DNA from: a virus
Reading direction: 5' to 3' (one strand)
Length of the DNA stretch: 49,516 bases
IMG/VR virus record: IMGVR_UViG_3300045919_000291
Location: 1-49,516 of that record
In this document: positions 34,758 to 40,999 of the stretch, one piece after another
Layout of the letters: each line of letters opens with the position of its first letter
Position numbering within the stretch: the first letter of the stretch is position 1
The notes under the pieces: generated by a model
Told to the model about the DNA's origin: nothing
The model's database searches: none
The model's input: the letters and a program-made list of their open reading frames with translations, nothing else
Made by a program: the position numbers and the translations under genes

Positions 34758-35186
34758 ATGCCTCGCGGCGGTAGAACCTCGGGCACCCGGCCGAAAGGCA
34801 ACGGCGCCGGGTTGCACGGCCCGAAGAAAGGCGCCGGCTGGGGTGGTTCCGCGAAGGGGGCGAGCATGTCGCGCATTACCCCCGACGAAAAGGGCGAAGC
34901 AATCCGTGCGCTCTCCAAAGACCCGGCGCACATGGCCAAGAAACTGGACCTTGCGGCGGAAATGCTGGCCATCCGCGTGCAGATAGCCCGCGACCCTGAG
35001 ACGCAGGCCCTTGGGCTGGCCGCGGCCGAGAGCGTGGAAAAGCGGCTGCTTGGCGCGCCGATGCAGCCGAGCGAGGTAAGCGGCCCCGGCGGCAAGGCCA
35101 TCGAAATGGACACCCCGCTTGACCGCATCGCTAGCCGCCTCGCTGGCCTCGCTGCCCGAGGCAACCCGCCTGAGCGTACTGAGTGA
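34758..35186 (+). CDS. terS: Small terminase subunit-like protein
   Basis: This 142-residue protein begins with a Gly/Lys/Arg-rich flexible region and continues as helices (DEKGEAIRALSKDPAHMAKKLDLAAEMLAIRVQI). It lies directly before, and overlaps by 68 bases, the large terminase gene. The position and helical, basic build suit the DNA-recognition subunit of the packaging motor, though no HTH is obvious. Confidence 0.6.
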   Translation: MPRGGRTSGTRPKGNGAGLHGPKKGAGWGGSAKGASMSRITPDEKGEAIRALSKDPAHMAKKLDLAAEMLAIRVQIARDPETQALGLAAAESVEKRLLGAPMQPSEVSGPGGKAIEMDTPLDRIASRLAGLAARGNPPERTE

Positions 35187-37422
35187 CCTATCCCCGGCCG
35201 AGCTACGGTCGCTGGAATACGACTGGCGATTTTGGGCGCGGCAGAACCAGCTAGCCCCGCCGGGAGATTGGACGTTCTGGCTGCTGCTGGCTGGCCGAGG
35301 TTTCGGCAAGACGCGAACCGGCGCCGAGTGGGTGCGGCAAGCGAAAAACACATGCAGCCGCATTGCGCTGGTGGCTCCTACCGCCGCCGATGTGCGCGAC
35401 GTGATGGTTGAGGGCGAGAGCGGCATCCTCGCCATCTCGCCGCCTGATGACCGGCCACTGTATGAGCCAAGCAAGCGGCGCCTGACATGGCCCAACGGCG
35501 CCATCGCTACCACCTACTCGGCCGATGAGCCGGAGCGACTTCGCGGGCCTCAAAGTGATGCCGCCTGGTGCCTGTCTGGCGATACGTTGGTCACGATGGG
35601 CGACGGTTCCCTGAAGCGACTTTCTGCTGTTGCCGCAGACGATGAGGTGCTGACGCGATCCGGTCCCCGCCGCGTGCTCGCCTCTGCGATGACGAGACAA
35701 AAAGCTGAAGTGTTTCTTTTGCGTTCTGTGGGTGGACAAGCTATAATCGGCACTGCCGATCATCCTGTGTGGATTGAGGGCGTGGGGTTTCTTCCCCTTG
35801 GGCAACTCTCTCCAGGGATGGTTTTATGTGCGGTCAATGCGTGCAGTGGGGCGGCAAACTCTGGCACCGCTACGGCAACGGGCACTACGAAGCGACTGCC
35901 CGGCTTCATCGGGAAATATGGGAAGCGGAGCACGGCCCAATCCCGGCCGGGTCTCATGTTCACCACATCAACGGCGACAAGGCCGACAACAGGCTGGAGA
36001 ACCTCGAACTTCTCACGCACGCAGCCCATGCTGCGCACCACGCGGCCGAAAACCTTCCGCCCCATAAAGAGCTTGCTGCTGCAAACGCTCTCGCGGCTAT
36101 TCGACGCAACCATGCCTTACGGATGGGGCGCGCGCTTCGGTGTATTCAGTGTGGCGGGGAGTACCGAAGCGGGTCTAAGCACCCCACGCGGTTCTGTTCT
36201 TCTGCTTGCATCGAGGCCGCCCGCTCTGGCGCGTTTGGGCAATCTGCTCGCCAGTGCGCGAGGTGTGGCGAAAGCTACACGGCAACGCGCCGCGTTCAGC
36301 TTTATTGCACGAAGCGGTGCAACACGTTGGCTGCATCTGATAGGGCTGAAAGTCGGTCAGAGCGGATCATCGCTTGCGCGTGTTGTGGCGCATCCTTTGC
36401 CAGCGCCCGATCTAATGCTAAGTTCTGCAAAAGGGCGTGCGCCCTCGCTTTCCACGCTGATAATCGCTTCCGTGGAAAGATTGGAAGATCGCCGAGATGT
36501 CTATGACATTGCGGTAGAGGGCGCGCGGGAATTCTTCGCTAACGGCATTCTTGTCCACAACTGCGACGAACTCGCGGCGTGGCGCTATCCCGAAGCGTTC
36601 GATATGCTCATGTTCGGGCTTCGTCTCGGTAAGCAACCGCGTTGCGTCATCACCACCACGCCGAAGCCGGTCAAGCTGGTGCGCGACTTGTTGAACGATC
36701 CGCGCTGCAAGATCACACGCGGCAGCACCTATGACAACCGCGCCAACCTGGCCGAAAGCTTCATGGCGCAGGTGGTGCGCAAATACGAGGGGACGCGCCT
36801 CGGCCGGCAGGAACTGAATGCCGAGTTGCTTGAGGACGTGCCCGGCGCGATGTGGAACCGGGCAATGCTGGACGCGAACCGCGTGCGGCAGGCGCCCGAC
36901 ACACTGCGCCGCGTGGTGGTGGCGATCGACCCAGCCGTCACCAGCGGCGAGAGCGCGGACGAGACCGGCATCGTCGTGGCTGGCGTTGGCGCCGATGGCA
37001 TCGGTTACGTGCTGGACGACCTGACCTGCAAAGACACCCCAGACGCATGGGCGCGCAAAGCCGTGAACGCCTACAAGGCGCACAAGGCTGATCGCATCGT
37101 GGCCGAGGTGAACAACGGCGGCGACTTGGTTGAGGCAACCATTCGCATGGTTGACCGCGCCGCATCATTCACCGCCGTTCGTGCCACGCGAGGCAAGGCG
37201 GTTCGGGCTGAGCCGGTGGGCGCGCTGTACGAGCAAGGCCGCGTTAAGCATGTGGGTGCATTCGCGGCGCTTGAAGATCAGATGTGTGGGTTTACCGCCG
37301 ACCTTGACCGCAAGGCGCACGGCAGCAGCCCAGACCGCGTTGATGCGCTGGTGTGGGCGCTTACCGAGTTGATGGTGGAGCCGCAGATAGCCCCCGCCAC
37401 GGCCCAACCACTTCGGCTCTAG
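35119..37422 (+). CDS. terL: Large terminase subunit precursor containing an intein
   Basis: This 767-residue precursor is interrupted by a 331-residue intein, so the mature ATPase/nuclease would have 436 residues. The extein holds Walker A AGRGFGKT (58-65), a Walker B region joined after splicing as AAW-CDELAAW, and the RNase H-like nuclease with Asp604 (VAIDPAV) and SPDRVDALVWAL near the end. The intein lies exactly at the Walker B acidic pair, so splicing is needed for a working motor. The start is TTG 35119, overlapping the small terminase gene; no better start is seen. Confidence 0.92.
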   Translation: MTASLAASLASLPEATRLSVLSDLSPAELRSLEYDWRFWARQNQLAPPGDWTFWLLLAGRGFGKTRTGAEWVRQAKNTCSRIALVAPTAADVRDVMVEGESGILAISPPDDRPLYEPSKRRLTWPNGAIATTYSADEPERLRGPQSDAAWCLSGDTLVTMGDGSLKRLSAVAADDEVLTRSGPRRVLASAMTRQKAEVFLLRSVGGQAIIGTADHPVWIEGVGFLPLGQLSPGMVLCAVNACSGAANSGTATATGTTKRLPGFIGKYGKRSTAQSRPGLMFTTSTATRPTTGWRTSNFSRTQPMLRTTRPKTFRPIKSLLLQTLSRLFDATMPYGWGARFGVFSVAGSTEAGLSTPRGSVLLLASRPPALARLGNLLASARGVAKATRQRAAFSFIARSGATRWLHLIGLKVGQSGSSLARVVAHPLPAPDLMLSSAKGRAPSLSTLIIASVERLEDRRDVYDIAVEGAREFFANGILVHNCDELAAWRYPEAFDMLMFGLRLGKQPRCVITTTPKPVKLVRDLLNDPRCKITRGSTYDNRANLAESFMAQVVRKYEGTRLGRQELNAELLEDVPGAMWNRAMLDANRVRQAPDTLRRVVVAIDPAVTSGESADETGIVVAGVGADGIGYVLDDLTCKDTPDAWARKAVNAYKAHKADRIVAEVNNGGDLVEATIRMVDRAASFTAVRATRGKAVRAEPVGALYEQGRVKHVGAFAALEDQMCGFTADLDRKAHGSSPDRVDALVWALTELMVEPQIAPATAQPLRL
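35569..36561 (+). mobile_element. Intein in the large terminase (residues 151-481)
   Basis: Splicing motifs are canonical: Cys151 in CLSGDTLV (block A), GTADHPVW with Thr212/His215 (block B), DVYDIAVEGAREFFANGILVHN (blocks F/G, 460-481), His480-Asn481 at the end and Cys482 as the +1 residue. The usual block F His is Arg here. The N-domain ends near residue 236. The 220 residues between the half-domains have no family signature and are out-of-frame translation of an HNH endonuclease gene. Codons are more A/T-rich than in flanking terminase sequence, suggesting recent entry. Confidence 0.92.
35826..36506 (+). CDS. HNH homing endonuclease nested out of frame in the intein
   Basis: This 226-residue ORF lies in another frame than the terminase. 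ATG 35826 follows AGGGATGGTTTT (SD-like) at the end of the intein N-domain; its TGA (36504-36506) falls at the start of block F. Residues 27-72 (LHREIWEAEHG..., HVHHINGDKADNRLENLELLTH) are an HNH_3 nuclease with His46/His47, Asn49 and His65-72. Three Cys4 modules follow (106-128, 144-165, 184-205; CxxC-13/14-CxxxC), probably for DNA recognition. It likely mobilises the intein. Its own frame is closed by TGA at 35775-35777. Confidence 0.88.
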   Translation: MCGQCVQWGGKLWHRYGNGHYEATARLHREIWEAEHGPIPAGSHVHHINGDKADNRLENLELLTHAAHAAHHAAENLPPHKELAAANALAAIRRNHALRMGRALRCIQCGGEYRSGSKHPTRFCSSACIEAARSGAFGQSARQCARCGESYTATRRVQLYCTKRCNTLAASDRAESRSERIIACACCGASFASARSNAKFCKRACALAFHADNRFRGKIGRSPRCL

Positions 37423-38832: not shown

Positions 38833-38870
38833 CGAGATTGCCGCACGGCTGATGCCAACGCGGCGCAACT

Positions 38871-38908
38871 GAGAGGCGGATGCCTTTCACCACTCGGCCG
38901 GATGGCCG
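38871..38908 (+). promoter_or_regulatory. Leader element before the scaffold-like gene
   Basis: The 88-base gap before the scaffold-like gene contains GAGAGGCG (38871-38878) and CCGGATGGCCG (38898-38908), the latter inside a self-complementary GGCCGGATGGCC. The same two words in the same order occur in the leader of the coat gene (39769-39776 and 39783-39793). It is a candidate cis-acting RNA motif. Confidence 0.4.
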
Positions 38909-38920
38909 GAAAGCCCCACC

Positions 38921-39673
38921 ATGAAACTGAAGATGAGCGACGCCGGTCAGGTTGTGGTCAGCGACGGCAAGCCTGTTTACGTGGCCGATGACGGCAAGGA
39001 GATCGTCTTCGACTACCCCGCGACGCTGGCGACGATTGGCCGGCTGAATGGCGAAGCCAAGGGGCACCGAGAACGCGCGGAGGCGGCCGAGAGCCGCGCC
39101 AAGCTGTTTGAGGGTATCGAGGATGCCGACGCCGCCCGCAAGGCGCTGGCGACGGTCAAGAACCTCGGCGATCAGCAGTTGATCGCGGCCGGTGAGGTAG
39201 AGCGCATCAAGTCCGAAACCGCCAAGGCGGTTGAAGAGAAATACAAGCCGTTCGTCACCAAGGCGGAAAAACTGGAAACCCAGTTGCACCGCGAAGTCAT
39301 CGGCGGTGCCTTCGCCCGGTCCAAGTTCATCGGCGAGAAGCTGGCCATTCCGCCCGACATGGTGGAAGCCGCCTTCGGCAAGCATTTCAGCCTGACGGAT
39401 GGCCGCGTGGTGGCCAAGGGACCGGACGGCAACACGATCTACAGCCGCGCGAACCCAGGCGAACTGGCCGACTTCGATGAGGCCGTTGAAATGCTGGTGC
39501 AAGCCTATCCGCACCGCGACACGATCCTGAAGGGCACTGGCGCGAGTGGCGGCGGCGCGCAGGGTGGCGCGAGCGGCGGCGGTTCCAAGCAGATGGCGCG
39601 CAAGGCTTTCGAGACCTTGGCGCCGGCAGAGCGCATGGCGCACGTCAAGGCCGGCGGAACTGTGGCCGACTGA
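38921..39673 (+). CDS. Scaffold-like protein (DUF6651 type)
   Basis: This 250-residue protein lies between portal and coat genes. It has a beta-like start, then a long charged coiled-coil (about 48-130: GHRERAEAAESRAKLFEG...KAEKLETQLHREV), a GDG-type module and a Gly/Ser-rich linker with a basic C-terminal helix (SKQMARKAFETLAPAERM). This fits an internal scaffold for P22-like coat assembly. Confidence 0.7.
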   Translation: MKLKMSDAGQVVVSDGKPVYVADDGKEIVFDYPATLATIGRLNGEAKGHRERAEAAESRAKLFEGIEDADAARKALATVKNLGDQQLIAAGEVERIKSETAKAVEEKYKPFVTKAEKLETQLHREVIGGAFARSKFIGEKLAIPPDMVEAAFGKHFSLTDGRVVAKGPDGNTIYSRANPGELADFDEAVEMLVQAYPHRDTILKGTGASGGGAQGGASGGGSKQMARKAFETLAPAERMAHVKAGGTVAD

Positions 39674-39692: not shown

Positions 39693-39823
39693 GGTGCCGC
39701 AGTAGCGCGGCACCGGACGTAACACGGCGCCCCACGGCGCAAGACTACCTAGCCCGACCCTGGATGGGGAGAGGCGCACCGGCTGGATGGCCGACCCGCG
39801 AACAAACCCCATCCAGCTAGGAG
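39693..39823 (+). promoter_or_regulatory. Structured 5' leader of the coat gene with sequestered Shine-Dalgarno
   Basis: GGTGCCGC/GCGGCACC (39693-39700 with 39707-39714) is a strong hairpin. CTGGATGGGG (39760-39769) pairs perfectly with CCCCATCCAG (39807-39816), and CCTAG (39748-39752) with CTAGG (39817-39821) extends the stem into the Shine-Dalgarno AGGAG (39819-39823). A second CTGGATGG (39783-39790) can compete for the same CCATCCAG. Two exclusive folds are thus possible, one burying the ribosome site of the coat gene. Confidence 0.55.
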
Positions 39824-39832
39824 CGCGCCACC

Positions 39833-40999
39833 ATGGCGAATACGCTGACGTCCCTCACGCCTACCATCTACGAAGCCCTTGACGTCGTCTCGCGCGAACT
39901 CATGGGCGCCATCGGCTCCGCGTCACGCAACACCAGCGCCGAGCGCGCCGCGCTGAACCAGACCATCATGGTGCCGGTTGCGCCGGCCGCGACCGCCGCC
40001 GACAACACCCCGGCCGTGACGCCGCCGAACACTGGTGATCAGACGGTGGGCAACACCACCATGACGATCAGCAAGAGCAAGCACGTTCCGATCCGCTGGA
40101 ACGGTGAAGAGCAGCGCGGCCTGATCAACGCCGGCAGCTACAACCAACTGCTGATGAACCAGTTTGCCCAGGCGTTCCGTACCCTCGGCAACCTGATGGA
40201 AGTGGACCTGCTGTCGGCGGCCCAGCTTGGCGCCTCGCGCGCCTATGGCACCGCAGGCACCGCGCCGTTTGGCACCGCCGCTGACCTGAGCGATATTGCG
40301 CAGGTTCGCAAAATCCTGAACGACAACGGCGCTCCCCAGACGGACCTCCAGATGGTCGCCAACTCGGCGGCCATGGCCAACCTTCGCGGCAAGCAGAACG
40401 TGCTGTTCAAGGTGAACGAAGCCGGCACTGATGCGCTGCTGCGCGACGGCATGATTGGCCGCCTGGAAGGTTTCGACCTGCGCGAAACCGGCAGCGCGAC
40501 GCTGTTCACCAAGGGCACCGGCACCAGCTACACCACCAACACCGCGGGCTATGCGGTGGGCGCCACGGCGATCACGCTGATCACCGGCAGCGGCACCGTC
40601 CTGGCCGGTGACGTGGTGACCTTCGCGGGCGACACCAACAAGTACGTGGTTGCGGCTGGCGTTGCGGCACCGGGCGTCATCACCCTGGCCGCGCCGGGCC
40701 TGCTGGTGGCGATCACCACCAGCGCCACGGCCATGACCATCGGCAGCAGCTACACGCCGAACCTGGCCTTCTCCAAGTCTGCGCTGCAACTCGTGACGCG
40801 CGCCCCGGCGATGCCGGTCGGCCCTGGCGGGCAGTCGATGGACATGGCCGATGACACGATGACGGTGACCGACCCGGTCTCGGGCATCACCTTCGACGTG
40901 GCGCTGTATCGCCAGTTCTTGCAGGCGACCTACCACGTCCGGTTGGCCTGGGGCACGGCGAACGTGAAGCCGAACCACGTCGCCATTTTGCTGGGCTGA
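39833..40999 (+). CDS. Major capsid protein (P22 coat-like)
   Basis: This 388-residue protein resembles P22 gp5-type coats: TIYEALDVVSRELMGAIGSASRN near the N-terminus, ISKSKHVPIRWNGEEQRGL near residue 85, a beta-rich insert (about 225-305, possibly an I-domain) and LYRQFLQATYHVRLAWGTANVKPNHVAILLG at the end. AGGAG lies 9 bases before the ATG. As the most-needed protein its leader has unusual structure. Confidence 0.88.
   Translation: MANTLTSLTPTIYEALDVVSRELMGAIGSASRNTSAERAALNQTIMVPVAPAATAADNTPAVTPPNTGDQTVGNTTMTISKSKHVPIRWNGEEQRGLINAGSYNQLLMNQFAQAFRTLGNLMEVDLLSAAQLGASRAYGTAGTAPFGTAADLSDIAQVRKILNDNGAPQTDLQMVANSAAMANLRGKQNVLFKVNEAGTDALLRDGMIGRLEGFDLRETGSATLFTKGTGTSYTTNTAGYAVGATAITLITGSGTVLAGDVVTFAGDTNKYVVAAGVAAPGVITLAAPGLLVAITTSATAMTIGSSYTPNLAFSKSALQLVTRAPAMPVGPGGQSMDMADDTMTVTDPVSGITFDVALYRQFLQATYHVRLAWGTANVKPNHVAILLG

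Follow-up and report, generated by a model that had tools for sequence, protein, structure and literature searches.

A conserved array of GGAU-tetraloop hairpins at the scaffold and coat ribosome sites of tailed phages

Why would the leader of a phage coat gene fold in two mutually exclusive ways around its ribosome site? The question was raised by an initial annotation of the IMG/VR virus record IMGVR_UViG_3300045919_000291, analyzed here as a single stretch of 49,516 nucleotides (nt; the window), and it concerned positions 39693–39823, just before the major head (coat) protein gene, where one fold was said to hide the Shine-Dalgarno (SD) sequence and another to compete with it, as in translational or ligand control. 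The analysis revealed that this leader carries a tandem array of short hairpins with GGAU tetraloops, belonging to an undescribed, phage-specific family of structured RNA located at scaffold and coat ribosome sites. The head genes are ordered portal (phrog_145), scaffold (phrog_784), and coat (phrog_283), and a sister array of the coat leader spans 38840–38909, upstream of the scaffold gene. The element is not restricted to the coat leader, and of its two copies the one before the scaffold gene is the stronger and the more widespread. In hundreds of related phages the array sits before the scaffold gene and often before the coat gene too, and it is found in phages of many Proteobacteria, among them established laboratory phages such as HK639.

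Across the whole window, seven + strand hairpins with a stem of at least 4 base pairs (bp) close on GGAU, and four of these form two tandem pairs, one in the coat leader (loops at 39762 and 39785) and the other in the scaffold leader (38878 and 38900). In 80 related IMG/VR loci, collected by a coat protein search, GGAU hairpins with the same minimum stem cluster at −1100 to −800 and at −200 to −1 from the coat gene, corresponding to the scaffold and coat leaders, and elsewhere the density is mostly 0–2 per 100 nt. The hairpins are arranged in runs of two to four with a spacing of mostly 20–27 nt, and their stem sequences differ. The first hairpin (H1) is comprised of an outer stem and a small internal loop followed by G(C/U)GC, and subsequent hairpins are simple. 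The tetraloop is usually GGAU and sometimes GGAA; reading the loops as YGGAY pentaloops gave isolated matches only, and the tetraloop was adopted instead. Of the GGAH tetranucleotides in scaffold leaders, 155 of 241 sit on a stem of 4 bp or more; for the remainder of these loci the figure is 234 of 5333.

The paired positions of the array are maintained by compensatory changes. An alignment of 33 arrays contained 72 double-change cells against 20 when shuffled; these arrays were chosen for having hairpins, and independent tests weigh more. A covariance model of the array (R1) was searched in further loci and gave 104 matches (57 over 423 kb and 47 over 401 kb). Every match is on the coding strand and almost all are in scaffold or coat leaders, with one clear exception, an additional strong GGAU array in the portal region of L004 (1396–1448), far 5′ of the scaffold leader. 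When matches from loci that had not entered the model were aligned, 92 double-change cells were counted compared with 26 when shuffled; the window is the sole row also present in the model, and the alignment, being fitted to the model, leans towards it. Moreover, the GGAU tetraloop is closed by a covarying Y-R pair. The covariation check that the initial annotation had proposed for related phages thus found compensatory changes for the hairpins in abundance.

The array is also specific in its location. At E < 0.01, R1 matches in 16 multi-megabase host genomes and five phages were confined to the phage head module, and the sole match in 200 Burkholderiales genomes, under stricter filters, was an already known prophage. 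An exact DNA pattern run over all IMG/VR contigs matched 66, with 62 of the matches directly 5′ of such a scaffold or coat gene. Rfam 15 (4227 models, riboswitches and phage and leader RNAs included) gave no gathering match in the window, and at relaxed E nothing relevant to the array in the window region or in seven relatives. Conservation is limited to the short stems and the GGAU loops, there is no Rfam riboswitch match, and nothing points to a small-molecule ligand, so that the ligand control initially suggested finds no support. Searching the literature for an earlier description of the motif, or for the mechanism in P22, returned no usable account.

In the scaffold leader of the window, the third hairpin (H3) ends 11 nt 5′ of the scaffold ATG. 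Across loci, the end of the last scaffold-leader hairpin is usually 9–15 nt from the start codon (range 0–40), adjoining the SD, and in six cases (L005, L006, L008, L019, L105, and Acinetobacter B1251) it lies 0–1 nt from the start codon, with the GGAU or GGAA loop as the sole SD-like sequence. With the loop located at the SD, or serving as the SD, a protein bound there would block ribosomes. The features of both leaders are collected in Table 1.

Table 1. Positions of the hairpin arrays, the competing strands, and the adjoining genes in the window
Feature	Position	Strand	Description
H1, scaffold-leader array	38840..38864	+	Outer stem GCCGC/GCGGC, inner stem GGC/GCC, UGAU loop (variant); read directly; R1 match 38833-38889, E 0.038
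H2, scaffold-leader array	38870..38889	+	8-bp stem, GGAU tetraloop 38878-38881
H3, scaffold-leader array	38894..38909	+	6-bp stem, GGAU tetraloop 38900-38903; adjoins SD GGAAAG
Scaffold protein gene, phrog_784	38921..39673	+	Middle is DUF6651 PF20356; candidate RNA-binding partner
5′ partner of long-range helix	39748..39769	+	CCUAG + CUGGAUGGGG
H1, coat-leader array	39752..39775	+	Outer stem GCC/GGC, internal loop CGA/AGA, inner stem CCCU/GGGG, GGAU tetraloop 39762-39765, then conserved GC; R1 match 39745-39796, E 9e-10
H2, coat-leader array	39780..39793	+	Stem CGGCU/GGCCG, GGAU tetraloop 39785-39788
Competing strand	39807..39821	+	CCCCAUCCAG + CUAGG; complementary to H1 strand 39760-39769 and CCUAG 39748-39752; overlaps SD
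Coat SD	39819..39823	+	AGGAG; read directly
Major head (coat) protein gene	39833..40999	+	phrog_283 / P22_CoatProtein PF11651

Which protein the array accompanies was examined across genomes. Similarity to the window coat is nearly the same in array-positive and array-negative loci (439 and 434 bits, respectively), and the scaffold is phrog_784 in array-positive and phrog_206 in array-negative phages. The arrays accompany the phrog_784 scaffold even beside the unrelated coat family phrog_247, as in Pseudomonas phages PS-1, D14P, and R656 and in L120, L124, and L126 (the coat assignment being checked for PS-1, D14P, R656, and L120). Hairpin arrays are also found in Acinetobacter B1251 and in Mannheimia 1152AP2, the latter with GGAA loops read by eye. 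A hidden Markov model of the scaffold N terminus matched 77 of 77 array-positive loci and 5 of 46 array-negative loci, and in four of these five, tandem hairpins whose loops differ (GGAA, GUGAA, GCGAA) are visible by eye at the same place. In 63 distinct loci with a phrog_247-type coat, arrays were detected in 14 of the 25 with this scaffold N terminus and in none of the 38 lacking it, and 10 of the 11 misses among the former show GGAA or GGAU hairpins by eye. As judged from gene content and sequence, the array follows the scaffold and not the coat.

Several further observations were made on scaffolds and loops. The scaffold leaders of L063, L080, L072, and L149 contain tandem GGAA, GGGAA/GUGAA, or GCGAA hairpins beside diverged scaffolds, possibly an example of loop and protein co-evolution. 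L053 and L062, which have phrog_206 scaffolds, contain tandem GGGG-tetraloop hairpins ∼70–250 nt before the coat gene that may represent a parallel operator using another loop. In L124, L126, and L150, the type of scaffold tail past a glycine-rich linker varies in step with the coat family, as though the scaffold end that binds the coat were exchanged together with it.

The competition between folds was investigated in 65 coat leaders after removal of near-duplicates. A match between the array and the linker downstream of it was significant at p < 0.05 against shuffled linkers in 24 of the 65 (∼3 expected). H1 pairs better with its own linker than with those of other phages (permutation p = 0.0002), and its 5′ strand likewise pairs better with its own SD region (permutation p = 0.0002), both results holding at both redundancy cut-offs, including 75%. 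The same test in scaffold leaders gave no signal (p = 0.48), which argues against a base-composition artefact in the coat leaders. The H1 5′ strand captures the SD through different sequences in different leaders, namely CCUAG/CUAGG in the window, GCUCCU/AGGAGC in L004, GUCUCC/GGAGAU in L110, GUCCUC/GAGGAC in L197, CUUC/GGAG in L255, and UCUCCUU/AAGGAGG in L326. Such capture is confined to a subset of leaders, L251 among the examples, and many leaders are without it. Thus, the competing folds around the coat ribosome site that were first proposed for the window recur in its relatives beyond chance. For a mutually exclusive leader switch, H1 is conserved and its pairing with the linker is enriched but in a minority of leaders; a coat-specific switch in a subset of leaders is likely.

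In the window itself, every segment named in the initial annotation is found at the position it gave or no more than a few bases away: CCTAG (39748–39752), CTGGATGGGG (39760–39769), a second CTGGATGG (39783–39790), CCCCATCCAG (39807–39816), CTAGG (39817–39821), and the coat ATG (39833). A 201-nt stretch of this region is predicted to fold more stably than dinucleotide shuffles (z = −2.97, with 1 of 200 shuffles equally stable), and the exact 10-bp match between CUGGAUGGGG and CCCCAUCCAG has p ∼0.01 against dinucleotide-shuffled linkers. In a 111-nt context, the long-range fold was calculated at −45.7 kcal/mol and the state in which H1 and H2 are forced at −30.2 kcal/mol. The favored fold, in which 39760–39769 pairs with 39807–39816 and CCUAG with CUAGG, displaces H1 alone and leaves H2 intact, such that the actual competition is between H1 and the linker. 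This differs from the idea that the two copies of CTGGATGG are mainly rival partners of one strand: each copy forms the top of its own conserved hairpin, with a GGAU tetraloop. Pairing of the second copy with CCATCCAG in the linker is possible (−37.6 to −40.1 kcal/mol), as had been suggested, but it lies 6–8 kcal/mol above the favored fold, opens H2, and is weakly conserved in coat leaders (p 0.02–0.03). Only the AGG of the SD is inside the window helix, and the SD remains mostly paired locally in silico even when the array state is forced. Consequently, the predicted folds of the window sequence do not cleanly show an SD captured by one fold and freed by the other.

We place at roughly one in two the probability that the array is a translational operator, probably bound by the phage's own phrog_784 scaffold protein, together with a coat-specific competing helix. 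The RNA structure is conserved and lies at the ribosome site or close to it, and the array co-occurs with the encoded scaffold family across genomes, for which linkage is possible; we infer protein binding, the scaffold as ligand, translation as the controlled step, and the direction of each effect. At the scaffold gene, protein on the last hairpin, which adjoins or contains the SD, would block ribosomes and lower scaffold synthesis in a negative feedback. At the coat gene, where the array lies ∼40–50 nt upstream, H1 would compete with the strand next to or overlapping the SD, and coat translation would then depend on whether H1 is kept closed, as by a bound protein, or opened. The phage would in this way sense its own scaffold protein and balance scaffold and shell output, a fixed scaffold:coat ratio being required of tailed phages. 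It is conceivable, if unlikely, that one scaffold protein produces opposite outcomes on the same array, blocking its own SD and switching coat translation on, with the ratio set by RNA alone and coupled to assembly. The scaffold would then keep H1 closed so that the anti-SD strand could not capture the coat SD, and scaffold residing in procapsids would no longer regulate, providing the coupling. If the operator proposal is correct, it would define a new RNA-protein pair (the GGAU tetraloop array and the scaffold) and a simple genetic tie between capsid gene expression and assembly. With a candidate binding protein named, the question is directly testable using short RNAs and one purified protein.

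A number of observations weigh against a scaffold-bound operator. The association with the scaffold is explicable by genetic linkage, as the array adjoins the scaffold gene, and PS-1, D14P, HK639, and B1251 have a scaffold-leader array but no coat-leader array. Array-negative phages differ in the middle region of the scaffold as well (0 of 37), and a link between the RNA and the N-terminal domain alone was withdrawn for this reason. The predicted scaffold structure gave no significant PDB match (none at E < 0.9) and no recognized RNA-binding fold. In the window, the H1 and H2 array state is ∼15 kcal/mol costlier than the long-range fold, so that it would have to arise by co-transcriptional folding or be stabilized by tight binding. 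The mean predicted accessibility of the SD does not differ between the states with and without the array (0.34 versus 0.36), and a general release of the SD when the array forms is on average not supported; the capture of AGGAG described in the initial annotation holds for the AGG of the window helix and for a subset of the relatives, without a change in this mean.

Other binding partners were considered. An operator for the coat protein, with the scaffold association reflecting linkage only, would be consistent with the arrays that precede the coat gene in many phages and with the coat-operator hairpins known in RNA phages, but it is disfavored by the coat swap and is improbable: arrays are found beside coats of two unrelated families (phrog_283 and phrog_247), coats equally similar to that of the window carry none when the scaffold is phrog_206, and several phages have the array before the scaffold gene only. 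A host protein could instead bind the loops, either CsrA/RsmA, which recognizes GGA in hairpin loops with one site at the SD, or another RNA-binding protein of the host. The array shares with CsrA targets its GGA loops, its multiple sites, and a site near the SD. However, CsrA (PF02599) was missing in 10 of 16 bacterial genomes with array prophages, at least seven of the 10 being isolates, and in all six phage records (the window and five phages), in a search where control genomes gave a positive signal, and CsrA is rejected as the binder for most hosts. High affinity Csr/Rsm loops are ANGGAX hexaloops on a stem (PMC4005645), whereas the array loops are GGAU tetraloops with a covarying closing pair. 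The arrays also depend on the scaffold family. A host protein is an unlikely binder, although one other than CsrA/RsmA is conceivable.

The hairpins might alternatively act on transcription or mRNA processing rather than translation, as a terminator, an antitermination or put-like element, or an RNase site. Intrinsic terminators are located just 5′ of many scaffold arrays (L146, L147, L150, L152, L220, L221, and L223) and between the array and the coat gene in L036, L162, L170, and L198; nevertheless, they stand before the array, after it, or are absent depending on the phage, no U-run follows the hairpins in the window, and the last scaffold hairpin stays in close register with the SD, making such a role quite unlikely. 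It is a more open possibility, albeit a doubtful one, that the array is a real operator and that the long-range helix of the coat leader is incidental pairing without function. The significance of the pairing in a minority of leaders (the 24 of 65) and the unchanged mean SD accessibility are consistent with this, as are the leaders of L097 and L152, which are without a long-range helix. In contrast, the advantage of own over foreign linkers at both redundancy cut-offs, the lack of this effect in scaffold leaders, and the recurrence of SD capture by the H1 5′ strand with different sequences (L197, L326, and L004) argue for a function of the helix.

The proposed scaffold operator can be compared with known systems. 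RNA phages such as MS2 and PP7 use hairpins as translational operators for the coat protein, and these resemble the array in being short, with a conserved tetraloop, at the ribosome site of a virion gene. They differ in that the array belongs to a double-stranded DNA tailed phage, has 2–4 tandem hairpins with a GGAU loop, tracks the scaffold, and serves two genes. The scaffold gene of P22 was reported decades ago to be autoregulated post-transcriptionally; we know of no RNA operator for this regulation and of no such hairpin array in P22, and P22 gp8 is not known to be related to phrog_784. In both cases the scaffold adjoins a P22-type coat gene, and a scaffold that limits its own synthesis is the logic proposed here, the difference being that here the operator is visible in the sequence and the regulation is proposed only. 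Autoregulation of the P22 scaffolding protein gene is attributed to Wyckoff and Casjens (1985, J Virol 53:192) as cited in PMC5744158. T4 and RB69 gp43 and gp32 have autogenous operators, that of gp43 being a hairpin with a UAAC loop ∼40 bases upstream of the start (PMC3014915). There too, a protein of a double-stranded DNA phage is the repressor of its own mRNA, acting on a hairpin located upstream and on ribosome-site sequence, but the element is one hairpin or pseudoknot belonging to a replication gene, with no array common to two head genes.

Other features were seen in the head region. Terminator-like elements, consisting of a GC hairpin and a U-run, are present inside the head operon, and three of this kind are annotated around the scaffold and coat genes in the record of the Mannheimia phage. 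In L001, L010, L083, and their relatives, the coat protein has an N-terminal extension of ∼35 residues, and the distance from the array to the new start codon is kept. The large terminase open reading frame of the window (35119–37422) contains an intein-like insertion (Intein_splicing E 1e-6 and Vint/Hint E 2e-3, below the Pfam cut-off), inside which an HNH_3 endonuclease (E 1e-18) is encoded at 35826–36506 in a different frame of the same strand.
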